A stretch of 20,213 nt of DNA from a bacterium (lineage in GTDB: Bacteria > SM23-81 > DAOVCL01), in the NCBI GenBank assembly GCA_029932675.1, contig JAOZPP010000060.1:1-20213 (forward strand). Direction: 5' to 3'. The position numbers were made by a program, and so were the translations under genes. Shown one piece after another: positions 2,101 through 20,055 of the stretch. The notes below the pieces were generated by a model. That model did not search any database and had not been told where the DNA came from. It worked only from the letters and a program-made list of their open reading frames with translations. Each line of letters starts with the position of its first letter. Within the stretch, counting starts at the first letter, position 1.

Positions 2101-2522
2101 CACCCCTCCGGGTTGATCCTATAGGTATGGCTTAACTGGGCACTCTTGCCCAACATAACCGAGGCCGAACAGTACCTCTCCTGAGAGAGGTTAATTGCCT
2201 TTTGAAACATCTGTTCAGGTATATCCTTCCCCCAGATGAGATATTCGAGTTCTATTTTGGTATATACCTTGGGATGTTGGGGAGCCTTTTCCGCCTTTAC
2301 CCTGACCTCGAATCGGTCAAATTTAACCCTCATCTTCCTCAAAATGGAGACCACATCCATCCCGGTGCAGCCGGCCAAACCTACAAGGAGAAGCTCCATA
2401 GGGCGGATGGCGGTATTCGTCCCCCCCACTTGGGGAGCCGTATCCATCACCACCGCGTGTCCGGAGTTGGCCCAGGCCACAAACTGCATATCCCCAGTCC
2501 ATTTTGCCCTAACCTCTGTCAT
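2100..2522 (-). CDS. OsmC family protein
   Basis: This 140-residue protein is of normal length for the YhfA/OsmC branch. The two conserved redox cysteines are present: Cys52 in GLAGCTGMDV, at the start of the central helix, and Cys118 in ERYCSASVML. Family members reduce organic hydroperoxides or act on other thiol-reactive compounds in the cytoplasm, as dimers with both cysteines at the interface. The GTNTAIRPMELLL segment before Cys52 is also typical. The start ATG lies inside the last codons of the nifS-selD fusion (14-base overlap) with AGGAAGG as ribosome binding site. The stop overlaps the downstream transporter start. This tight coupling suggests joint function with sulfur or selenium chemistry. 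The actual substrate is unknown. Confidence 0.88.
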   Translation of the reverse strand: MTEVRAKWTGDMQFVAWANSGHAVVMDTAPQVGGTNTAIRPMELLLVGLAGCTGMDVVSILRKMRVKFDRFEVRVKAEKAPQHPKVYTKIELEYLIWGKDIPEQMFQKAINLSQERYCSASVMLGKSAQLSHTYRINPEG

Positions 2523-4722
2523 CCTTCCTCCTTTTCACTTTAATCTTCCCCTCACCTTTCCCCTTGATCTGACCGATCTCCACCGCCCCCTCCACCCCTT
2601 TCTTCCGAAGAAGTTCCAACAGCTCCCCCTTTTGGGCCGAAGGCAAGGAGATGATCAACCCTCCGGAGGTCTGAGCATCGCAGAGAAGCAACCTACCAGA
2701 ATCAGGGATCCCCTCATCCCACTCCACCCAGTCCGCCAAAAAACTCAAGTTGGCCTTCGTGCCACCGGGGATTGCCCCGGCAGCCACCAGATCCCAGACC
2801 CCAGGCAGAACGGGCACTTCCTCCAACCATACCTCAGCCTCCACCCCACTGGCTTGGGTGAGCTCCTTTAGATGCCCTAAAAGGCCAAACCCCGTTACAT
2901 CAGTACAGGCATTTACCCCGGCCTCTACCATAGCCTCTGAGGCGGCCCGGTTCAACACCCCCATCAAGGAGATCGCCCTTTCGGCTAGGTCCTTCCCCAC
3001 AATCCCCCTTTTCATCCCAGTGGTTATCACCCCCAGTCCCAATGGTTTGGTGAGGATAAGGGAATCTCCCACCTGCGCTTCGGCATTAGTCACTATCTTC
3101 CCAGAGGTGAGGGTTCCCGTGACCACCAGTCCAAATTTGGGCTCTGGATCTTCAATGGTATGTCCCCCCAGGATGGCTATCCCTGCCTCCTGGGTCTTAT
3201 CCTTAGCCCCGCGGAGGATCTCCTCTAAGACAGTGAGGGGCAATCTACCCTCAGGAAATGCCACTATAGAGAGGGCGAAGAGGGGCTTAGCCCCCATCGC
3301 ATATATATCGCTTAAGGAGTTGGCAGCAGCTATAGATCCAAACTGATAAGGGTCATCAACAACAGGGGTAAAGAAATCTACGGATTCCACCAAAAGCTCA
3401 CCTGCAGGGGATTTATAGACACAGGCATCGTCCAATGTCTCCCTCCCCACCACCACCCTGGGATCAGAGGGAAGGGAAAGATTTCTTAAGAGGGCCTGAA
3501 GGTTCTGGGGCCTCAGCTTGCAGGCGCATCCCAGACCATGGGTGAGGTGGGTGAGCTTAACTTCCTTCGTCCTTGGTTCCTCCTCTCCCCCAGATCTAAT
3601 GCTCCGGTAGACCTGGAGGATGTAGCCAATGGCCCTCTCTATCTCCTCCTCTGTGTTCTCCCTTCCCACGGAGAACCGCACTGTCCCCAAGGCCAGTGGG
3701 GCGGGAACCTTCATCGCCACTAAAACAGCCGATGGTTCAGCTACATCCGTGTGACAAGCCGCCCCAGCAGAGGCAGCTACCTGATCAAGCCCAGAGAGGA
3801 GGGTTTGGGCATCGATTCCTGGGAAGCCCACGCTTAGGGTATTGGGTAACCTCCGTAGGGGATGTCCATTGAGCCTAAGATCTGGGATCTCCTGGTTCAG
3901 GCCCTGCCAAAGCATATCTCGCAACTTCCTCATATGGGCCATATTTCCCTCCAGTCCCTGGGCAGCGATCTCACAGGCCTGGCCAAATCCCACGATAAGG
4001 GGGACGTTTTCCGTCCCCGCCCTTAGCCCTCTCTCCTGATCTGCCCCCCGGATGAGCGGCTCAACCCTCACCCCACGGCGGATATATAAGGCACCTATCC
4101 CTTTAGGGCCATAGAACTTGTGACCAGCAAGGCTGAGGAGGTCAACGCCGAGATCGCCGACCTTGGTGGGTATCTTCCCCACAGATTGGGCGGCATCCGT
4201 ATGAAAAATGATCCCTCTTCTGTGGACTATCTTCCCTATCTCCTCAATGGGTTGGATAGTCCCCACCTCATTCTGGGCATGCATAATGGTCACCAAGATA
4301 GTCTCTGAAGTCAAGGCCCCCTCCACTGAGGCTGGATCGACCATCCCATATTCGTCAACAGGAAGATAGGTTACCCTAAACCCCCTTTCCTCCAAGTACT
4401 TGCATACATTCAGAACAGCAGGATGCTCCACCTGGGAGGTGATGATGTGGTCTCCCTTTCCCTGGTTGGAGAAGGCAACCCCGCGGATGGCCAAATTGTT
4501 CGACTCACTTCCCCCACTGGTGAAGACTATCTCATCGGGATGACATCCCAAAAGATGAGCCACTTGCTCCCTGGCCCGCATCACCCCCTTCTTCGCCTCT
4601 GCCCCCCAAGGATGGGAGCTGGAGGGGTTGCCAAACTTTCCCTTAAACCAGGGGAGCATTGCCTCCAAGACCTGGGGGTGCAAAGGGGTAGTGGCATTGT
4701 AGTCAAGGTAGATCGGTTTCAT
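2509..4722 (-). CDS. Cysteine desulfurase (NifS-type) fused to selenophosphate synthetase (SelD)
   Basis: This 737-residue protein has two enzymes in one chain. Residues 1 to about 375 are a class V aminotransferase-fold cysteine desulfurase: HTDAAQSVGK, the PLP lysine K202 in SLAGHKFYGP, and the catalytic Cys323 in SAGAACHTD. Residues about 388-737 are SelD: active-site HGLGCACKL with Cys399 and Lys402, then GGHTIEDPEPKFG, TDVTGFGLLGH and AQTSGGLI. The SelD position that is selenocysteine in some bacteria is a plain TGC codon here. Inferred role: NifS releases Se (or S) from (seleno)cysteine and hands it directly to SelD, which makes selenophosphate from ATP for Sec, selenouridine or Se-cofactor synthesis. 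NifS-SelD fusions have been noted before but are uncommon. It heads the unit with osmC and the transporter. It has no clear Shine-Dalgarno, and a 15-bp palindrome occupies the leader. Confidence 0.95.
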   Translation of the reverse strand: MKPIYLDYNATTPLHPQVLEAMLPWFKGKFGNPSSSHPWGAEAKKGVMRAREQVAHLLGCHPDEIVFTSGGSESNNLAIRGVAFSNQGKGDHIITSQVEHPAVLNVCKYLEERGFRVTYLPVDEYGMVDPASVEGALTSETILVTIMHAQNEVGTIQPIEEIGKIVHRRGIIFHTDAAQSVGKIPTKVGDLGVDLLSLAGHKFYGPKGIGALYIRRGVRVEPLIRGADQERGLRAGTENVPLIVGFGQACEIAAQGLEGNMAHMRKLRDMLWQGLNQEIPDLRLNGHPLRRLPNTLSVGFPGIDAQTLLSGLDQVAASAGAACHTDVAEPSAVLVAMKVPAPLALGTVRFSVGRENTEEEIERAIGYILQVYRSIRSGGEEEPRTKEVKLTHLTHGLGCACKLRPQNLQALLRNLSLPSDPRVVVGRETLDDACVYKSPAGELLVESVDFFTPVVDDPYQFGSIAAANSLSDIYAMGAKPLFALSIVAFPEGRLPLTVLEEILRGAKDKTQEAGIAILGGHTIEDPEPKFGLVVTGTLTSGKIVTNAEAQVGDSLILTKPLGLGVITTGMKRGIVGKDLAERAISLMGVLNRAASEAMVEAGVNACTDVTGFGLLGHLKELTQASGVEAEVWLEEVPVLPGVWDLVAAGAIPGGTKANLSFLADWVEWDEGIPDSGRLLLCDAQTSGGLIISLPSAQKGELLELLRKKGVEGAVEIGQIKGKGEGKIKVKRRKDDRG

Positions 4723-4866: not shown

Positions 4867-5998
4867 ATGTAATCTCCTTAGTGGCCTGAGTAATAAGGTT
4901 CAGGGTATATTGGGAGAACTTTCCCTCCGTTGTTCCCGTTTTGACATAACTTGGTTGAGGCAATCGGACCATATCAAACCTAAGGTCAAGTGGAATCTTG
5001 GATCCACTCAGTTGGCTTAGAGGTATCCGCACCCCAAAACCGTATGTATTTCCACTCAATAGGCTTTTATTGGCCTGCGGGTGCCCTAAATCATCAATTC
5101 TCCGCCTATAATAACCATAACGAACTATCAGTAGTTCCAAGAGAGTGAACTCCCCACCCATTTTAATACCCTTTTCGTATTTAGAATTTAACAACTTCTG
5201 ATATTCTATGTGGCACAAAGCATCAAAGGTCTCTAAATTCTCTAAGACAGAACACCCAAACAAAGAGATTCGGTAGGAACCACCCAAACGGAAGATAACC
5301 GGTAGTTCATCTTCATTACCTGAGGGACCAATGCTTGAATAGGTAAAATTAAAGAGGCTGACCCCCACCGTTGCTACCTGTTGTATCTTTCCCCCTTCCT
5401 GAAGTGAAAAGTTCCTCAAAATCCCTAAGTCCATTAGACCAGTGTTTGTGTTGTCATCAAATCCATACCTTCGGTGGATTAGCTTGAGGTTCACCCCGAA
5501 AAGAAAAGATTCCAAGTCCGTAGCCATAGTCAAAGCATACATGGATACACCAGGTGTAAATTCCTCAATCCGTTGGTGGTCAAAATTCCAAAGTAACCTC
5601 CTTCCAAAACTGAGGTGACACCTACTCAGAGCGACAACCCCATAATCCCCTATTTGAAAGCCACCACCAATAAAGCTGAGGGAAGATTTCTTCAACAGTA
5701 AAAGAGGGCTAGGTAGGTAAGAACCGGTAACCAAGGCTCCCCTTGCCGAGGCAAGGCCGGCAGGATTATAAAAATTGGCAAAGAGATCCCCGTCAATAGC
5801 CACATAACCCCTTCCCATCGCCTCTGCCCTGGCACTTGGAAGGTGGTGAAAGAAAAGTTCCCCCAATACCCCATTGTATCCTCCCAAAGCAGGATAAGCT
5901 ACGAGAAGAAAACCCAAAAGAACCAAACCAAATAAGACCTCTTTCCTTAACACCTTTCTGATATCCCCTAAAAAGAAGAACCAAGGGGAATCTAACAT
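4781..5998 (-). CDS. PorV/UPF0164-like outer-membrane beta-barrel protein
   Basis: The sequence after the signal region, SARAEAMGRGYVAI then FANFYNPAGLA, is the hallmark of the PorV/PorQ/UPF0164 family of FadL-like barrels. Alternating aromatic and hydrophobic strands follow to YTLNLI near the end. A hydrophobic core (LFGLVLLGFLLVAYPALGG) forms the signal peptide. I chose ATG 5998 because of GAGGGG just upstream. A GTG at 5953 would give a more normal signal peptide, and an in-frame start at 6052 is less likely. The last 28 or so residues (from CHCERNENLKI) and the stop codon come from the MITE at 4780-4866, so the native C terminus probably ended shortly after LITQATKEIT. The ligand is unknown. 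It precedes the selenium unit but has a separate promoter between. Confidence 0.75.
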   Translation of the reverse strand: MLDSPWFFFLGDIRKVLRKEVLFGLVLLGFLLVAYPALGGYNGVLGELFFHHLPSARAEAMGRGYVAIDGDLFANFYNPAGLASARGALVTGSYLPSPLLLLKKSSLSFIGGGFQIGDYGVVALSRCHLSFGRRLLWNFDHQRIEEFTPGVSMYALTMATDLESFLFGVNLKLIHRRYGFDDNTNTGLMDLGILRNFSLQEGGKIQQVATVGVSLFNFTYSSIGPSGNEDELPVIFRLGGSYRISLFGCSVLENLETFDALCHIEYQKLLNSKYEKGIKMGGEFTLLELLIVRYGYYRRRIDDLGHPQANKSLLSGNTYGFGVRIPLSQLSGSKIPLDLRFDMVRLPQPSYVKTGTTEGKFSQYTLNLITQATKEITCHCERNENLKIPNTCLELWIASSLCSSQ

Positions 5999-6134
5999 TA
6001 TCCCCTCGATCCAGCTTATTCTGTGCCCAAATACCTTAGTGAGATGGGTCACATCCTTCCGATTCTAAGGAATCCCCTGCTTACCCACAAAAGCCGTCAC
6101 CTTCCAACGATTGCAGCCGAGAGGGCAGAAGGGC

Positions 6135-7061: not shown

Positions 7062-7889
7062 TCATCCCTTTTTGGGGTTCCCTCTTGAGCCCACGAATTC
7101 CACGCACCTCTTCACTATCTCAGCAAATGCCCTGGCCGCTTCCGAATCCTTGTATGACTCTACAAATGGTTTGCCTGAATCCCCCGATTCCACGATCTTT
7201 GGCTCAATTGGAATCCTCCCCAGGAAAGGAACCCCCAGCTCAAGCGCTGCCCGCTCTCCTCCCCCCACCTTAAAGAGCTCAATCCTCTTTCCACAGTGGG
7301 GACAGATGAGGCCACTCATATTCTCTAAGATCCCCATAATAGGCATCCCCAGCGCGCGGGCGAAGTTTACCGCCTTGCGGGAATCGAGAAGGGAAACCTC
7401 CTGAGGGGTAGTTACCACTATCGCCCCATCAATCCCACCAATAAGCTGGCCGATGCTCAAGGGTTCATCCCCTGTACCTGGGGGGAGGTCGATCACCAAG
7501 TAATTAAGTTTTCCCCAGTTGGTATCTTCTAAGAATTGCCTAATTGCCTTCATCTTTAGCGGCCCTCGCCAGATCACCGGAGAATTGGCATCGGGAAGGA
7601 GAAAGGCCATAGAGATCACCAAGAGATTGGGCAAAAGGCTCACCGGTTGAATCCTCTCTCCTACCATATTCAACCTTCTCCCCTCTAATCCCAGGAGCTT
7701 GGGGATATTTGGCCCGTGAATGTCTACATCTAAAAGTCCTACCCTCGTCCCCTGCTCTTGAGCAAAGGAGTAGGCCAGATTGGCTGCTACCGTGCTCTTG
7801 CCCACCCCTCCCTTACCGCTTATGATCACAATCTTGTGCTCGATTCCGCTGGTGTCTACTTGTGAGATCTGCCCCTTTTGCTCCATCAT
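7062..7889 (-). CDS. mrp: Mrp/ApbC family P-loop ATPase (Fe-S cluster carrier)
   Basis: This 275-residue protein has the deviant Walker A of the MinD/Mrp class (GKGGVGKS, residues 25-32), [16 protein letters not shown] (switch I region) and [17 protein letters not shown]. The two cysteines of the bridging Fe-S site are in ICPHCG (Cys196, Cys199). Members bind a [4Fe-4S] cluster between two subunits and hand it to apoproteins. It lacks the N-terminal DUF59 domain of some homologues. Start ATG follows AAAGGGAGAG, nine bases after the lpd stop. Grouping with lpd and cysK fits general cofactor and sulfur housekeeping. Confidence 0.92.
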
Positions 7890-7898
7890 CTCTCCCTT

Positions 7899-9281
7899 TT
7901 ATAAAATATGCAGAGGACGGCCTAACGCCGCCAACGATGCCTCCCTTAGGGGCTCAGAAAGGGTGGGATGGGGATGAAATGTACGCACAAAATCTGAGCC
8001 TTTAGCTTCCATCTGGAGGGCTAATGCTGCCTCAGCAATCAGGTCTGTTGCCCTTGGACCTAAGATGTGGATACCTAAGATCTTCTCGGTCTTCCTCTCC
8101 ATCACTACCTTAACTGACCCTTCCACCTCCCCTTCCGCTATAGCCTTCCCATTAGCGGCAAAAGGGAATCTGCCTATGCTTACCTCATAGCCAAGCTTGG
8201 CAGCTTCCTCCGCCGTAACTCCCACCGAAGCCAGCTCTGGCCGAGAGAAGACACATCTGGGAACGAACCTATGATCTACCTCTACCCTTCCCCCCAGAGC
8301 ATTTTCAGCAGCGATCTCTCCCTCGCGGGAGGCCACATAGGCTAAAAGGTAGCCGCCGATAACATCCCCCGCCGCATAGATGTGGGGGACGCTTGTCTGT
8401 AAAAGCCTATTGACCCCGATGGCTCCATCAGCAATTTTTATCCCCATCTCCTCCAGGCCAAATCCCTCAAAATAGGGCTTTCTTCCGGGAGCTAAGAGTA
8501 TCTTCTCCACAGTGACCTTAGATCCCCCTGTAGGCGTTTGGAGGGAAGCAGAATACAACCCATCTTTATACGACACCTCCTCTACCTGAGTTCCTGTATA
8601 TACCTTTACCCCTTCCTTCCGTAAAACCCTCTCCAATTGGAGACAGAGCTCCTCATCCTCCCGCGGGAGGATGTGATCCATAAGTTCAACCAGAAAGACC
8701 TCACATCCGAAAAAGCGAAAGATAAAACTAAACTCCACCCCAATTCCCCCCCCACCTATGATAAGAAGGCTATCAGGGAGTTGCTCCAAGCTTAGGGCAG
8801 AGTCGCTATTCAAAACCCCGGGGCCTTCCAGCCCGGCAATGGGGAGCTGGGCGGGAGAGGAGCCCGTGGCCACAACTATCTTTTTAGCCTTGAACTTACC
8901 TTTACCTTCTACTTCTATAAGATGAGGCTGCAAAAATCGGGCCACCCCCTCTACCAACCTCACCCGACGAGCTCGCAGAAGGTGCTTTACCCCCCCTACC
9001 AATCTCTTTACCGCCCAATCTTTCCTCTTTAAAACCCCATCCCAATCGAGGCTAATACCTTCTGCTCTCAGGCCAAAGGAGGAAAGGCTCTGCAATCTAT
9101 GGTACAGTTCGGCAATCGAGAGGAGGGCCTTGGTGGGAATACAGCCCTGATTGAGGCAAACTCCCCCCACCTCCCCTTTCTCCACTAACGTTACCTTAGC
9201 CCCCAATTGGGCACCCCTTATGGCCCCTACATATCCAGCGGGACCGCCTCCAATTATTAGGAGATCCGTCTCCTCGACCAT
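7899..9281 (-). CDS. lpdA: Dihydrolipoyl dehydrogenase
   Basis: This 460-residue protein is the FAD flavoenzyme that reoxidises dihydrolipoamide of 2-oxoacid dehydrogenases or the glycine cleavage system. The FAD Rossmann motif is GGGPAGY (11-17), the redox disulfide is GGVCLNQGCIPTK (Cys42, Cys47), the NAD motif is IGGGGIGVEF, and the second FAD motif is IYAAGDVIGG. The C-terminal catalytic His-Glu pair is in HPHPTLSE. A mercuric or other reductase is unlikely given the HPHPTLSE end. The E1/E2 partners are not nearby. The ATG is preceded by AAGGAG at seven bases. It lies between accA and mrp, with gaps of 54 and 9 bases. Confidence 0.95.
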   Translation of the reverse strand: MVEETDLLIIGGGPAGYVGAIRGAQLGAKVTLVEKGEVGGVCLNQGCIPTKALLSIAELYHRLQSLSSFGLRAEGISLDWDGVLKRKDWAVKRLVGGVKHLLRARRVRLVEGVARFLQPHLIEVEGKGKFKAKKIVVATGSSPAQLPIAGLEGPGVLNSDSALSLEQLPDSLLIIGGGGIGVEFSFIFRFFGCEVFLVELMDHILPREDEELCLQLERVLRKEGVKVYTGTQVEEVSYKDGLYSASLQTPTGGSKVTVEKILLAPGRKPYFEGFGLEEMGIKIADGAIGVNRLLQTSVPHIYAAGDVIGGYLLAYVASREGEIAAENALGGRVEVDHRFVPRCVFSRPELASVGVTAEEAAKLGYEVSIGRFPFAANGKAIAEGEVEGSVKVVMERKTEKILGIHILGPRATDLIAEAALALQMEAKGSDFVRTFHPHPTLSEPLREASLAALGRPLHIL

Positions 9282-15396: not shown

Positions 15397-15459
15397 TGTG
15401 GGGACAGGTCTTTAGACCTGTCCGCAGAAAGCGGACAGACCTGAAGGTCTGTCCCTACA
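15397..15459. repeat. 63-bp compound palindrome
   Basis: The outer arms TGTGGGGACAG and CTGTCCCTACA pair with one mismatch. Inside are two further perfect palindromes (GGACAGGTCT-TT-AGACCTGTCC and GGACAGACCT-GA-AGGTCTGTCC) and a central TCCGC-AGAAA-GCGGA. It can fold as one long cruciform or as two tandem hairpins. The build is that of a REP/MITE-like dispersed element. No flanking target duplication is evident. Confidence 0.65.
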
Positions 15460-15790
15460 TCTTAAAACTGAAAAGGTTATGTCAATTGGCCATCAGTTTA
15501 TGAATGAATGAGCCGGGCTAAGAGTCTATCTTACCTCAAAAAACCTACATCGCAAATAAGCTCAGCTCAAAAAATCCTTGACTTTCTGCAAGGGATTTGT
15601 GATGGTACGGCAAAAAGTCCGATTGAGAGCTATAACTGGCTAGACTCCAAAATATAACATATTTATATTTCAATAAGTTGCATTTCGCACCTGGAACGTG
15701 TTAAAACAAATTTTAACTTTTTGCCTAACCATCATTTGTTATTTTTTACAATAAGATTCCCACGGGGGATTTTCTTCTGTGAGGTGATAG

Positions 15791-16147
15791 ATGATGAAAA
15801 AGCTTGGGATTATCTTATTGAGCATAGCCTTTCTTTTATCTGCTTTTAGCTTCTTGCCGGTGAAGAGGGCATCCGCAAACACAGGGCCAGAGAGATGTAT
15901 GCTTATGGCCGCCGAGCCGTGGCATTGGTGGTATCATTCAGGCAAGGGTGGTTCAGGCTCATCGGGAGGAGATAACCAGGGGATATCTGATTCTACCAAT
16001 TATTCTGTAACAAAACATTTTCCTATTAGTTCGGCTCAGAGACCATCTTATCAGAAAGGGCATAGAAACCCTATTAAGCAAAGGAATCAATCCCTCAACT
16101 GGTGGACGAGGTTCTACCTATTCTGGCAGATGATATTCAACAGATAG
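15791..16147 (+). CDS. Small secreted protein of unknown function
   Basis: This 118-residue protein has a clear signal peptide: MMKKLGIILLSIAFLLSAFSF, then a cleavage site after VKRASA (about residue 29). The mature part is short, glycine/serine-rich in the middle (GKGGSGSSGGDNQG, about 51-64), basic and polar afterwards, and ends in an aromatic segment (NWWTRFYLFWQMIF) that could sit on or in a membrane. It has one cysteine (residue 36). The ribosome binding site is GAGGTGAT ahead of ATGATG. I recognise no family. It is 24 bases upstream of the TPR/sigma-54 activator and probably cotranscribed, which raises the possibility that it is a signal or a target of that regulator. Confidence 0.7.
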   Translation: MMKKLGIILLSIAFLLSAFSFLPVKRASANTGPERCMLMAAEPWHWWYHSGKGGSGSSGGDNQGISDSTNYSVTKHFPISSAQRPSYQKGHRNPIKQRNQSLNWWTRFYLFWQMIFNR

Positions 16148-16171
16148 CTTTTTCCATTGAGAGGGAGATAG

Positions 16172-19084
16172 ATGGAAAAACTTGCAGAGCTAATTAAATC
16201 GGCCAGGGATTATCAGGGCCGTGGGAAGTTCTCCCAGGCGATAGGGCTTTACCAAAGGGCTCTGAAGAAGGCAAGGTCCAAAGAGAAGGCAAAAATTAAG
16301 AAGGATTTAGCCTTCTGTTATCTGCGGAGTGGAGAACTTGATTTAGCCCTCAAGGAGGCAAGGGAAGCAGAGGACAGTTTCGCTCAGTTGGGGGATGAGA
16401 TAGAATTGGCCGAAGCACAGTTACTTGTGGCCAATGTGCTGTTGGAGATGGGGAGGAGTGAAGAGGCCAGAGACCTTAGTATGAAGGTGTATGAGTCCTA
16501 CCGGCAAACTGGACAACATAGGATAATAGGACTCTCTCAAAGGATGTTAGGCCGAGCGCTTGCTCAGTTAGGTGACTATAGAGGGGGAGAAGACTTCTTC
16601 CAGGATAGTCTTTCCTCATTTCGGCTTTTAGGCGATGAAGGGGAGATATTGATCTGCTATAACTGCATTGCGAATCTAAATTTCGCTTATTCTGATTATA
16701 AACAGGCCCTTATAAATCTTGAGAAGGGTCTAACTATTGCCCAAAAGAGTGGAAGAAAACGGGAGGAAGCCCTTATTTTGGGTAATATCGGTACACTTTA
16801 CCGGAAGATAGGCAAGTGGGCAAAGTCAGAAGAATATTTATACTCAAGTTTGAAGCTATACGAGAAGATAAATGATATTTTGGAAGCTGTCAAAGGGCTC
16901 ATCTCGATGGCGCGCCTAAGAGTTCTGCAAAGAGATTTTAATCGTTCAAAGAAACTGCTGAATAGGGCTTTAACCTTGGCTCAAGAACACGGCTACAGAA
17001 GGGAAGAAGCGATGTCCCTTGAGTCCCTGGGAGATGTGGCTAAGGAAAACGGAGATCTCGACCTTGCCAGGGACTATTACCAGAGGACATTGGATATAGG
17101 GAGAAAGCTGGGGCAAAAGGACATCATCAATCAGGTGCAGAGGAGGAGGGCAGACTTGCTCATAGCTGAGGGGAAGGACCTTGATGAGGCTTCAAGATGT
17201 ATCCAGGAGGCTCTGAGGGTTTCCCAGTCCTTGGGAGACAGGTTTGAAGAGGGATGCTGTTACCGCACGATAGGCAGACTCGCCCAGGCCAAAGGCGACT
17301 CTAAGGCTGCAGAGGCCAATTTTGAAAAGGCCGTTTACATCCTCCGCTCCCTGGAGGACAGGTTTGAGTTAGCACACACTCTTTTAGCTCAGGGGGAACT
17401 TACCGGGAGGGATGACCTCTTGCGGGAAGCCCAGAGGCTCTTTGCTCAAATTCAGGGGGCGGAGTTCTATCAGGCCCTGGCTTTGCTCCAGATTGCTAAG
17501 GCGGAGTCATCCTGCAAGGTAGCCGTTGAATATCTAAGGGAAGCGGAAAAGCTACTGCAGGCTAAGGGAGAAGCTGAGAAGCTCAAGGAGGTCCAGGCCC
17601 TCAAGCTTGAGCTCAACCAGAAGCTAAGGAACTTCCCGGCCAGGAAGTATGAGTTCCTGCAGGGGTTGTCCGCAGGGGATTTGGGGGAGGTTTTTGGCCA
17701 AGTGATTGAGGTTTTGGGAGCCGACAGGGGGTTTGTGGCCTACACCGGGGATGGGAGCAAGGGGATGGAAGTGGGGGCAAGCCATAACCTTGGGGAGGGG
17801 GAGGTAAAGGGGCTTCTCTCCCTGTTGGCGGATGGAGATGGCTTTGAGGTGGGCCAGCCTTCCATTCTCTATGATAGCTCCCTTGATGAGCGGTTCTCCG
17901 CTGTGGGGGCTGGTAGCCTGATGTTGATCCCCTATGGGAATAGGGAGAGGATAGACGGTTACCTCTATGTGGATCGGGGGAAGGGGAAGGAACCTTTCTT
18001 GGATAAGGAGCTTGACCTCTTCTATCTTCTCTCCGAGAGGGTAGCCAAGGCGATAGCCGAGCAGAGGCAGAGGGAGTTGGAGAGGGCGAACCTGGGCTTA
18101 AGACAGAGGCTGGCCGTGCAGGGGGTAGTTCCTGAGGAGATAATCACCCAGAATGAGGGGATGCTGGAGGTATTGAGGAAAGTGGATAAGGTCAAGGACT
18201 ACAAGACAACTGTGCTCATCAAAGGTGAATCCGGGACGGGGAAAGAATTGGTAGCCGAGAGGATTCACTTTGCCAGTCCAAGGGGCCTCTACAAACTCAT
18301 CCCCGTAAATTGTGGGGCCATACCGGATGATCTGTTGGAGGCGGAGCTCTTCGGCTGTGAGAGGGGGGCATATACCGGGGCTGTGCCCAGGAAGGGGCTA
18401 ATTGAGGAGGCCAATGGGAGCACGCTTTTCTTAGATGAGGTGGGTAATTTGAACCTCAGCCATCAGGCCAAGCTTCTGCGGGTGCTGGAGGATGGGAAGG
18501 TTCGCCGACTGGGGGGAAACAGGGAGAGGGATGTGGATGTGCGGGTGATAGCAGCTACCAACAAAGATCTGGAGGCGGAGATAAGGAAGGGGAGGTTTAG
18601 GGAAGATCTCTACTATAGGCTCAACACGGTAGTGTTAGATCTACCTCCCCTGAGGGAGAGGAGGGATGACATCAGACTTCTGGCCCAGCATTTCCTGGAA
18701 GTTTACTCCCGGCAATTCAGGAAGAACCTGCGGGGCATTAGTGAGGGGGCCCTGCGGCTTTTAGAGGGATACTCCTGGCCAGGGAATGTGCGGGAACTGA
18801 AGAACGAGATGGAAAGGGCGGTGCTTATGGCTGAGGAAGGGGACCAGATCACCCCCGAGCACCTGTCAGAAGGGATGAAGCTAAGGGGACATTTGGAAGA
18901 GGGAAGTCTTCAAGCTCTTGATGGGATTTCACTGGAAGAGGCTGAAAGGGTGCATATACTGCGGGTATTGGAACAGACAGGTTGGAAGAAGGTAGAAGCC
19001 TGTTCTGTTTTAGGGATTTCAAGGCCGACCTTGAACAGGAAAATGGAAAAGTATCATATTGAGGGAAGGAGATCAGCGCGTTAA
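16172..19084 (+). CDS. TPR-GAF-AAA+ sigma-54-dependent transcriptional activator
   Basis: This 970-residue protein starts with a long tetratricopeptide array (residues about 5-480; repeats such as GDYRGGEDFFQDSLSSFRLL and GDLDLARDYYQRTLDIGRKL). A GAF-like domain follows (about 490-625), then a short coiled linker, the sigma-54 interaction AAA+ domain (about 650-890) and a C-terminal Fis-type HTH (about 930-963). In the AAA+ part are Walker A GESGTGKE (685-692), the sigma-54 loop as GAYTGA (732-737) and Walker B LFLDE (752-756). The sensor region FREDLYYRLN and the WPGNVREL motif are also present. There is no receiver domain, so the input is probably a ligand or protein bound by the TPR or GAF part. 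The ATG follows AGAGGGAG. A sigma-54 promoter lies about 225 bases past its end, which suggests a local target. Confidence 0.93.
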   Translation: MEKLAELIKSARDYQGRGKFSQAIGLYQRALKKARSKEKAKIKKDLAFCYLRSGELDLALKEAREAEDSFAQLGDEIELAEAQLLVANVLLEMGRSEEARDLSMKVYESYRQTGQHRIIGLSQRMLGRALAQLGDYRGGEDFFQDSLSSFRLLGDEGEILICYNCIANLNFAYSDYKQALINLEKGLTIAQKSGRKREEALILGNIGTLYRKIGKWAKSEEYLYSSLKLYEKINDILEAVKGLISMARLRVLQRDFNRSKKLLNRALTLAQEHGYRREEAMSLESLGDVAKENGDLDLARDYYQRTLDIGRKLGQKDIINQVQRRRADLLIAEGKDLDEASRCIQEALRVSQSLGDRFEEGCCYRTIGRLAQAKGDSKAAEANFEKAVYILRSLEDRFELAHTLLAQGELTGRDDLLREAQRLFAQIQGAEFYQALALLQIAKAESSCKVAVEYLREAEKLLQAKGEAEKLKEVQALKLELNQKLRNFPARKYEFLQGLSAGDLGEVFGQVIEVLGADRGFVAYTGDGSKGMEVGASHNLGEGEVKGLLSLLADGDGFEVGQPSILYDSSLDERFSAVGAGSLMLIPYGNRERIDGYLYVDRGKGKEPFLDKELDLFYLLSERVAKAIAEQRQRELERANLGLRQRLAVQGVVPEEIITQNEGMLEVLRKVDKVKDYKTTVLIKGESGTGKELVAERIHFASPRGLYKLIPVNCGAIPDDLLEAELFGCERGAYTGAVPRKGLIEEANGSTLFLDEVGNLNLSHQAKLLRVLEDGKVRRLGGNRERDVDVRVIAATNKDLEAEIRKGRFREDLYYRLNTVVLDLPPLRERRDDIRLLAQHFLEVYSRQFRKNLRGISEGALRLLEGYSWPGNVRELKNEMERAVLMAEEGDQITPEHLSEGMKLRGHLEEGSLQALDGISLEEAERVHILRVLEQTGWKKVEACSVLGISRPTLNRKMEKYHIEGRRSAR

Positions 19085-19263
19085 AAAATGCTACTTAGAC
19101 CTTAAATTTTTACATTTTGTTCATCTCTCTGTGGATTATAGAGTTACAGTCGACTGATGGAGAAATGATGTAACAGAAAATTACCTAATAGGTGGATAGG
19201 GGGTTTCACTGGTTCTTGCCAAAGGTGAGAAAAGGGATTTTTCCGCCAATAACTTATTGCGAT
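19085..19263. other. 3' region of the activator gene; possible enhancer site
   Basis: No gene is seen. A 10-bp perfect palindrome CAGTCGACTG (19147-19156) lies about 155 bases upstream of the sigma-54 promoter, a normal distance for an activator binding site recognised by a Fis-type HTH. Only one copy is evident, so this is a suggestion. Confidence 0.3.
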
Positions 19264-19302
19264 AAAGCCACTTAAGAAATTAAGTGGTTTTATTATTTTT
19301 TG
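19264..19302 (+). terminator. Rho-independent terminator of the activator operon
   Basis: A 12-bp stem (AAAGCCACTTAA, GAAA loop, TTAAGTGGTTTT, with one G-T pair) runs into TTTTATTATTTTTT. It lies 180 bases after the activator stop and insulates it from the sigma-54 promoter that follows. Confidence 0.85.
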
Positions 19303-19309
19303 GCCTATT

Positions 19310-19326
19310 CTGGCATGGTTTTTGCC
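19310..19326 (+). promoter_or_regulatory. Sigma-54 (-24/-12) promoter
   Basis: CTGGCATGGTTTTTGCC matches the consensus YTGGCAYG-N4-TTGC. The invariant GG (19312-19313) and GC (19324-19325) are separated by exactly ten bases. The predicted start is near 19337. It directly follows the activator operon's terminator and reads into the hairpin array and the 59-codon gene. Confidence 0.75.
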
Positions 19327-19420
19327 CTATGTCTGAGTGTTTCCGCTTGTCCGTGGCTTGGGTGGGCAGGGGAAGCCGATGCTGTCTTCTTTGGTGGTTG
19401 GAGGCAGCATTAGGGAACAA

Positions 19421-19450
19421 TGAGGTGGCAGAACCCTTGATTCTCCCACC
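19421..19450. repeat. GGTGGCAGAA palindrome, copy 1 (degenerate)
   Basis: TGAGGTGGCAGAACCC then TTGATTCTCCCACC. It differs from copy 2 by one inserted T and one substitution (C for G) in the right arm. Its left flank (ATGAGGTGGCAG-like) matches the other copies. Confidence 0.7.
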
Positions 19451-19504
19451 AAACATAGCGGAGACGCCCGTAGGTTCACCCCTGCCTGCCCCTCCGAGCA
19501 TATA

Positions 19505-19533
19505 TGAGGTGGCAGAACCCTGATTCTGCCACC
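19505..19533. repeat. GGTGGCAGAA palindrome, copy 2
   Basis: A perfect 10-bp stem GGTGGCAGAA / TTCTGCCACC surrounds the loop CCCTGA, preceded by ATATGA. The 26-bp core is the exact reverse complement of copy 3. Confidence 0.8.
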
Positions 19534-19612
19534 AGAACCAACATTGTGCCCTCAGGGCTCCTGTCCTGACGGAAGACGGTAAAGAGGCAAGCGAGGGCCG
19601 GTAGAGTGTGGT

Positions 19613-19649
19613 CCGATAATCTCCTTATGGTCCCCCGGGAGATTATCGG
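19613..19649. repeat. 12-bp stem hairpin
   Basis: CCGATAATCTCC (19613-19624) pairs perfectly with GGAGATTATCGG (19638-19649) around a 13-base loop containing GGTCCCCC. It is part of the hairpin cluster after the sigma-54 promoter and has no T run, so it is not a terminator. Confidence 0.75.
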
Positions 19650-19712
19650 TGATGTCATGCCGTAGGATGGGTGGCCACTACAGAATTCCTGTCGTCCTTG
19701 TTTGCCGAGTGG

Positions 19713-19750
19713 CCTGGTGGGTCCCATTGAGGGGTAAGGGACCCGCCAGG
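19713..19750. repeat. 13-bp stem hairpin
   Basis: CCTGGTGGGTCCC (19713-19725) pairs with GGGACCCGCCAGG (19738-19750), including one G-T pair, around the loop ATTGAGGGGTAA. No T run follows. Confidence 0.75.
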
Positions 19751-19789
19751 ACTCCGTGCTGGTAGGGTTTCTGCCCTGATGGAGGGAGA

Positions 19790-19818
19790 TGAGGTGGCAG
19801 AATCAGGGTTCTGCCACC
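19790..19818. repeat. GGTGGCAGAA palindrome, copy 3 (inverted core)
   Basis: It has the same stem arms as copy 2 but the loop reads TCAGGG instead of CCCTGA, so the 26-bp core is copy 2 flipped. The left flank GATGA is shared in direct orientation. Confidence 0.8.
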
Positions 19819-19824
19819 TGGTTG

Positions 19825-19848
19825 CCGTCAGATTCGGGGATCTGACGG
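19825..19848. repeat. 9-bp stem hairpin
   Basis: CCGTCAGAT (19825-19833) and ATCTGACGG (19840-19848) pair perfectly around the six-base loop TCGGGG. It is the last hairpin before the ribosome binding site of the 59-codon gene. Confidence 0.75.
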
Positions 19849-19875
19849 CTCAGTGAAGGGGGAGGAGTTAGCCTT

Positions 19876-20055
19876 ATGGAACCCGATGATGATAAAAAGC
19901 CAAAGCCAGAATTAAGGCTGGAGCTTAAGCTGATTAAGCCACCAAAGAAGGAGAAAAAGAAGAAGGGGGTGTGGCAGAGGATACTGGAGGTCTTAGAGGA
20001 GCAGGTGAGAAAGGGGAGGGAAGAGGGCGAAAGCAGGCACCCCAGTGACTGGTAG
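19876..20055 (+). CDS. 59-residue charged small protein
   Basis: The ATG at 19876 follows a strong GGGGGAGGAG site at eight bases and runs 59 codons to TAG. The N-terminal half is Lys/Glu/Pro-rich (MEPDDDKKPKPELRLELKLI, then KPPKKEKKKKG). The second half could form an amphipathic helix (VWQRILEVLEEQVRKGREE), ending HPSDW. There is no signal peptide, membrane segment or cysteine. I recognise no family. It is the first gene with a convincing start after the sigma-54 promoter at 19310, behind a hairpin-rich leader of about 540 bases. It may be the true target of the upstream activator, or the start of a longer operon that leaves the window. Confidence 0.6.
   Translation: MEPDDDKKPKPELRLELKLIKPPKKEKKKKGVWQRILEVLEEQVRKGREEGESRHPSDW

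Follow-up and report, generated by a model that had tools for sequence, protein, structure and literature searches.

The contig JAOZPP010000060.1 (assembly GCA_029932675.1) ends in a group of plus-strand elements in which a gene for a small secreted protein (SEC) is followed by a gene for a sigma-54 activator, a terminator, a -24/-12 promoter, a structured leader and an open reading frame (ORF) for a charged protein of 59 residues (SMALL), raising the question of whether these elements constitute a single regulatory unit and what such a unit delivers. The window analysed here is the entire contig, positions 1-20213, labelled C46, and the host genome searched, from a relative of Ca. Zixiibacteriota, comprises 3.03 Mb in 116 contigs. 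Based on sequence evidence from draft metagenome-assembled genomes of two species, we consider it probable that the cassette in the window is one of about a dozen recombining copies, and that each copy would serve as an insulated switch, dependent on sigma-54, for a single set of secreted proteins.

Recurrence of the cassette and its regulatory parts

Each of the six parts listed in a preliminary description of this DNA was found in place (Table 1), all on the plus strand, with the other main genes of the window on the minus strand. The proposal that they form one unit is strongly supported by their recurrence. Searches of the host genome with the leader DNA, the activator, SMALL and SEC converged on overlapping loci, comprising 13 SEC loci, about 14 long TPR activators and 11 SMALL loci, and the common order at these loci is SEC, activator, -24/-12 site, structured leader, SMALL and large secreted proteins. 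The search for this order in related genomes, suggested in the same description, gave a positive answer in a sister species (Ca. Zixiibacteriota CSMAG_1030), where the loci L029 and L030 and the partial contig L124 show it as well. The recurrence of the same order in paralogs and in a second species indicates that the layout is more than a product of chance.

Table 1. Coordinates of the cassette parts in the window
Feature	Position	Strand	Remarks
SEC, small secreted protein	15791..16147	+	Signal helix, conserved ANTGxExxMLMAAEPW segment, disordered linker, C-terminal amphipathic helix
TPR-GAF-AAA+-Fis sigma-54 activator	16172..19084	+	Starts 24 nt after SEC; Pfam TPR_12, GAF, Sigma54_activat, HTH_8
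Candidate upstream activator site, GTTACA-N20-TGTAAC	19143..19174	+	Predicted; inside a 246-bp interval shared with C9a and L029
Intrinsic terminator closing the SEC-activator operon	19261..19303	+	Stem 19261-19294
Sigma-54 -24/-12 promoter	19311..19326	+	TGGCATGGTTTTTGCC; GG-N10-GC; matching sites in paralogs
Leader core domain (type A)	19337..19499	+	Long-range stem P2, hairpin P3, possible crossing helix P1, inserted palindromic repeat
Leader domain 2, branched	19582..19757	+	Compensatory changes in alignment
Two strong palindromic hairpins	19790..19857	+	GGTGGCAGAAT.., CCGTCAGATTC..; before SMALL; family also dispersed in the genome
SMALL, 59-aa charged protein	19876..20055	+	Lys-rich linker, amphipathic helix GVWQRILEVLEEQVRKG, C-terminal DW; GGAGGAG ribosome site

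The distribution of the two small proteins is narrow, since both families were found in one genus only among the genomes searched. Alignment searches placed SEC at 5-6 sister-species loci, with no reliable match in the other 96 genomes, and SMALL at 4 sister-species loci, with only weak matches in 58 other genomes. Both are lacking from G002 and G003, two genomes from a different family of the same phylum, which do contain long activator frames (about 1720 aa). A mobile-element origin of the cassettes was considered and set aside, as no transposase was noticed in them and SEC has no phage match. The copies C33 and C7 run into contig ends. It was also observed that the ends of several contigs lie within or close to cassette sequence.

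The activator consists of a TPR array (about residues 1-480), a GAF domain (510-628), an AAA+ domain (657-903) and a Fis-type HTH (920-961). Its assignment to the sigma-54 activators follows from the AAA+ domain, which matches PF00158 (Sigma54_activat, E 1.8e-64) and contains the Walker A motif GESGTGKE and a GAYTGA loop, and from the C-terminal HTH, which matches PF02954 (HTH_8, E 1.1e-13); in some paralogs the loop position reads GAFTDA or GSFTNA. No membrane segment is seen in this soluble protein, and no receiver domain was found in it. RpoN is encoded in the host genome, and established sigma-54 biology suggests that an activator of this family would switch on the adjacent -24/-12 promoter.

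The 15-base consensus of this promoter occurs once in the window, against 0.10 occurrences expected, and in many paralogs a stem of the CACTTAA/TTAAGTG type lies just 5' of the promoter. The palindromes 5' of the promoters vary from copy to copy, and C46 and C9a share HTH and upstream DNA alike: the 246-bp interval around the candidate activator site is nearly identical in C9a and 77% identical in the sister-species locus L029, the same two loci to which the HTH of the window is 100% and 84% identical, respectively. The sequence shows that the SEC-activator operon ends at the terminator, with the promoter directly after it. In the mechanism that we propose, a transcript starting near 19337 would carry the leader, SMALL and, in the longer copies, one or more large secreted proteins. 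The Fis domain would bind its own site some 80-250 bp upstream, in keeping with sigma-54 biology, while the AAA+ ring would use its GAFTGA-type loop to open the RNA polymerase-sigma-54 complex at the promoter.

Module exchange and the input to the activator

The mosaicism of the cassettes, like their gene order and conservation, can be read directly from the sequences. Identity between paralog activators is uneven from domain to domain, and it was examined with a step test in which the jump in identity over 60 residues on either side of a position was compared with 200 column shuffles, a procedure that ignores real rate differences between domains, so that the ortholog pair C30/L175 serves as the better control. 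Steps reached by none of the 200 shuffles were obtained for eight pairs within the host genome and for one cross-species pair (C109/L030); those of C108/L030 (2/200) and C46/C104 (9/200) were weaker, and the ortholog control was near uniform (18/200). The breaks fall near residues 180-265, 639 and 905. The largest separates an AAA+ domain that is 100% identical between C7 and C9b from an HTH that is 27% identical, following 96% DNA identity over 2.15 kb, and between C46 and C18a identity declines from 78-88% in the TPR-GAF part to 50% and then 31%.

Sharp breaks delimit four modules, namely SEC with the N-terminal TPRs, GAF/AAA+, the HTH with the upstream DNA, and SMALL with the downstream cargo. 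The nearest relatives of L029 differ accordingly by module: C33 for the first, C76/C46 for the second, C46/C9a for the third and C109 for the fourth. These patterns suggest that the cassettes have traded sensor, DNA-address and output parts by recombination. Judged by module linkage, SEC and the N-terminal TPRs would form the input module, the HTH and upstream DNA the address module, and SMALL and cargo the output module, and recombination between cassettes would have re-paired inputs, addresses and outputs.

The nature of the input is the weakest step of this reading. No Pfam family matched SEC, whose structure model contains helices at residues 3-20 and 98-116 and a disordered linker at low confidence (pLDDT 59), the signal peptide being judged from sequence and helix alone. 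Across the cassettes, SEC divergence tracks that of TPR residues 1-200 (rho 0.83), a correlation that fades to 0.06 for the AAA+ domain. From this linkage we infer that SEC, whether whole, as a fragment or as an unexported precursor, may be the ligand read by the TPRs. As a separate observation, C76 (L049) contains at 7068-7939 two tandem related small secreted ORFs between the activator and a distant promoter, with HGWGFTC-type motifs near the C-terminus and a run of N in the first ORF.

Three other accounts of SEC can be considered. The TPR and GAF domains could sense something unrelated, with SEC a co-expressed structural or accessory envelope protein, which is plausible although on balance improbable; GAF domains commonly bind small ligands and activators often have unrelated neighbours, but hardly any cassette is without SEC, whose subtype changes with that of the N-terminal TPRs.

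Another account draws on the RRNPP systems (Rap-Phr, NprR, PlcR, AimR), in which a secreted small ORF lies beside a soluble TPR receptor composed of an N-terminal HTH or Rap-type domain and then the TPRs. By analogy, SEC might be secreted as a pro-signal and, once processed, be read by the TPRs, so that each cassette would form a quorum or self-sensing circuit of its own. The adjacency is the same, with a soluble TPR receptor encoded 24 nt after SEC, and the idea is in keeping with the signal helix of SEC, its disordered linker and its conserved terminal segments, as well as with its divergence in step with TPR 1-200. A match of SEC to the Phr N-terminus (E 0.057) and an AimR match (E 0.047) are sub-threshold hints and were not used as evidence of membership. 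However, the Phr match is confined to the signal peptide, the domain order is unlike that of RRNPP receptors (N-terminal TPRs, AAA+ between, C-terminal Fis HTH), neither an importer nor a protease was linked to the cassette, and linkage by itself could account for the co-variation, so that an RRNPP-like circuit is regarded as a tentative possibility.

In a third account, which we regard as unlikely, unexported SEC precursor would build up when secretion is saturated and inhibit or release the activator through its TPRs, thereby coupling cargo expression to export capacity; SEC does have a signal helix, the co-transcribed activator is without a membrane segment and most tested outputs are exported proteins, but precursor half-lives are usually short.

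Leader RNA, small protein and predicted exported output

The leader as a whole (19337-19875) folds at -272 kcal/mol (z = -7.3), and none of 100 shuffles was as stable. A model of its core (R1) matched 8 loci in the host genome and 3 in the sister species, every one at a cassette, and under strict filters had no match in 39 other genomes, although the E-values of custom RNA models are rough. Domain 2 has 39 predicted pairs with 99.4% of alignment cells paired and six pairs changed on both sides, pairing drops to 37-50% in slid controls, and none of 500 shuffles reaches its covariation score; as related sequences can beat shuffles without structure, this covariation is strong evidence rather than proof.

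Three leader types can be distinguished. The type A core is present at C46, C18, C9a, C104, C109, C108, C9b, L029, L030 and L124, type B consists of successive hairpins around TTTCCTCCAAAGGAAGG (C98, C111, C7 and C76), and a third type (CCCGTGGCTTTGTGCGGAAGCCGAAAACTCGCC) is common to C30 and the sister locus L175. By eye, the first stem of type B differs in sequence in C76 and C111 from the others and keeps its pairing. The GGTGGCAGA..TCTGCCACC hairpins belong to palindromes scattered through the genome; they have been inserted into some leaders and are not what makes up the conserved core. REP-like palindromes of this kind and of the GGACAGGTCT.. kind also occur at window positions 15413-15466 and at many genome sites. 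That the leader is a functionless pile-up of such repeats is quite improbable: GGTGGCAGA..TCTGCCACC palindromes lie both within it and at many other sites, and several copies are without the inserted hairpin, but the core and domain 2 are distinct from them, the core was found at cassettes only and domain 2 co-varies. Against Rfam 15 the leader had no match at gathering score, the best relaxed-threshold matches being far below family cut-offs, and an HDV-like ribozyme, a group II intron, a T-box and a c-di-GMP riboswitch were considered and dropped, since their layouts misfit and Rfam gives no support. The leader probably controls the stability or translation of a long mRNA.

For SMALL, alignment across relatives, another check proposed in advance, gave non-synonymous divergence (dN) of 0.04-0.26 and synonymous divergence (dS) of 0.24-1.7, with dN well below dS in every computed pair, which indicates purifying selection on a real protein. 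Its copies have 53-59 aa and mostly end in DW; a second subtype (C104, C109 and L029) starts with MVDF and ends in DW, GL or GW. A helix at residues 32-50 is predicted at low confidence (pLDDT 65).

The earlier suggestion that the output is the structured RNA and/or the small protein is incomplete, because in the longer copies genes for large secreted proteins come after SMALL, and most of the proteins tested carry a sorting domain of the type IX secretion system (T9SS). TIGR04183 was above cut-off in 8 of 9 downstream proteins scanned in paralogs and the sister species, the exception being a C25 peptidase. The cargo with sorting domains includes beta-propellers, BNR proteins, M4-type and C25 peptidases and a beta-helix, and in C104 two other ORFs lie between SMALL and the gene of the sorting-domain protein. 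The host genome encodes the translocon protein SprA and about 144 sorting domains. In C18, where the SMALL DNA is identical to that of the window, the next gene encodes a secreted repeat protein truncated by the contig end. Since SMALL leads into large secreted proteins in other copies, the cargo of the window, beyond the contig end, is probably an exported protein as well. As a guess from linkage, SMALL may assist the production or export of this cargo.

Several observations weigh against the cassette reading. C30 has a weak SEC, an activator and a promoter but leads into housekeeping genes, and it and its sister-species ortholog retain the promoter but have another type of leader and neither the small ORF nor T9SS cargo. 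C11 has SMALL and cargo, and neither an activator nor a -24/-12 site was seen nearby. The activator is frameshifted in C98 and has an in-frame stop in L029, and the small ORF is frameshifted in C9a, which suggests that some copies are decaying. In the leader core, 96.3% of alignment cells are paired with weak covariation (31/500 shuffles as high), and the crossing helix P1 is tentative, L029 being without its 5' strand. The output of the window is extrapolated from paralogs, as the contig stops at 20213, 158 nt beyond the 59-aa ORF, cutting off the main downstream gene. Finally, physical linkage alone could produce the co-variation of SEC and TPRs. An activator kept without the promoter, hairpins or small gene, the pattern named beforehand as speaking against a unit, occurs among outliers only, namely C30 with its sister-species ortholog and C35.

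A fuller version of the cassette reading is speculative and rather doubtful at present. In it, a recombining receptor repertoire would serve each T9SS cargo set with its own secreted signal, TPR receptor, HTH and DNA address, together with a leader regulated at the RNA level and a dedicated helper protein, and module exchange would make new signal-output pairings.

Relation to known systems and further observations

With activators of the NtrC/NifA family, the cassette shares an AAA+ domain with Walker A and a GAFTGA-type loop, a Fis HTH and a -24/-12 promoter beside the activator gene, whereas the long TPR sensor with a secreted ORF, the structured leader, the dedicated small ORF, the dozen mosaic copies per genome and the T9SS cargo set it apart. 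C16 and C35 of the host genome share the TPR-GAF-AAA+-Fis core, and in C16 the gene of a large secreted protein is likewise preceded by a -24/-12 site, but both have a fused or adjacent Ser/Thr kinase (by eye), and SEC, the structured leader and the SMALL family were not found there. In C35 (L109), at 5441-6014, two TGTAAA-N6-TTTACA-like palindromes come after the kinase-TPR-GAF-sigma-54 fusion, and beyond them lie a -24/-12 site and an ORF for a secreted protein of 80 aa.

Control of the cell exterior by sigma-54 has been described as a theme (PMC3162934), and the TPR gene prsT is reported to adjoin an RpoN-dependent PEP-CTERM gene (PMC9850573). The cassettes resemble the RpoN/PrsR PEP-CTERM systems in their predicted sigma-54-dependent exported proteins and differ in the T9SS sorting domains on their outputs. 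The best NCBIfam match of the activator, PEP_resp_reg (TIGR02915), covers only the C-terminal residues 633-963 and scores 327 bits against a cut-off of 502.6, so that the activator is not assigned to PrsR. In C77 (L115), small secreted proteins preceded by several -24/-12 sites occur with a PrsK-like histidine kinase and a PrsR-like activator, a region that by eye is of the PEP-CTERM type.

In full-text searches of an open-licence library, with the papers judged by title and abstract, no sigma-54 activator system with TPR, RRNPP, T9SS or domain shuffling of this kind was found, nor any description of sigma-54 control of type IX secreted proteins, a mode of control that the cassettes suggest. 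They would represent a modular library of sigma-54 switches made by nature, with sensor, engine, address and output parts that have been exchanged at recognisable breakpoints, and would supply existing pairs with which promoter recognition by activators and the ligands of TPR domains could be studied. The cassettes also add two structured leader RNAs and two families of small proteins, all of them uncatalogued.

Elsewhere in the window, on the minus strand, a single ORF at 2509-4722 combines a class-V aminotransferase (cysteine desulfurase-like) domain with AIR-synthase domains and looks like a desulfurase-SelD fusion, and two small adjoining ORFs at 464-1012 resemble, by eye, an AbrB/MazE-like antitoxin and a RelE/ParE-like toxin.

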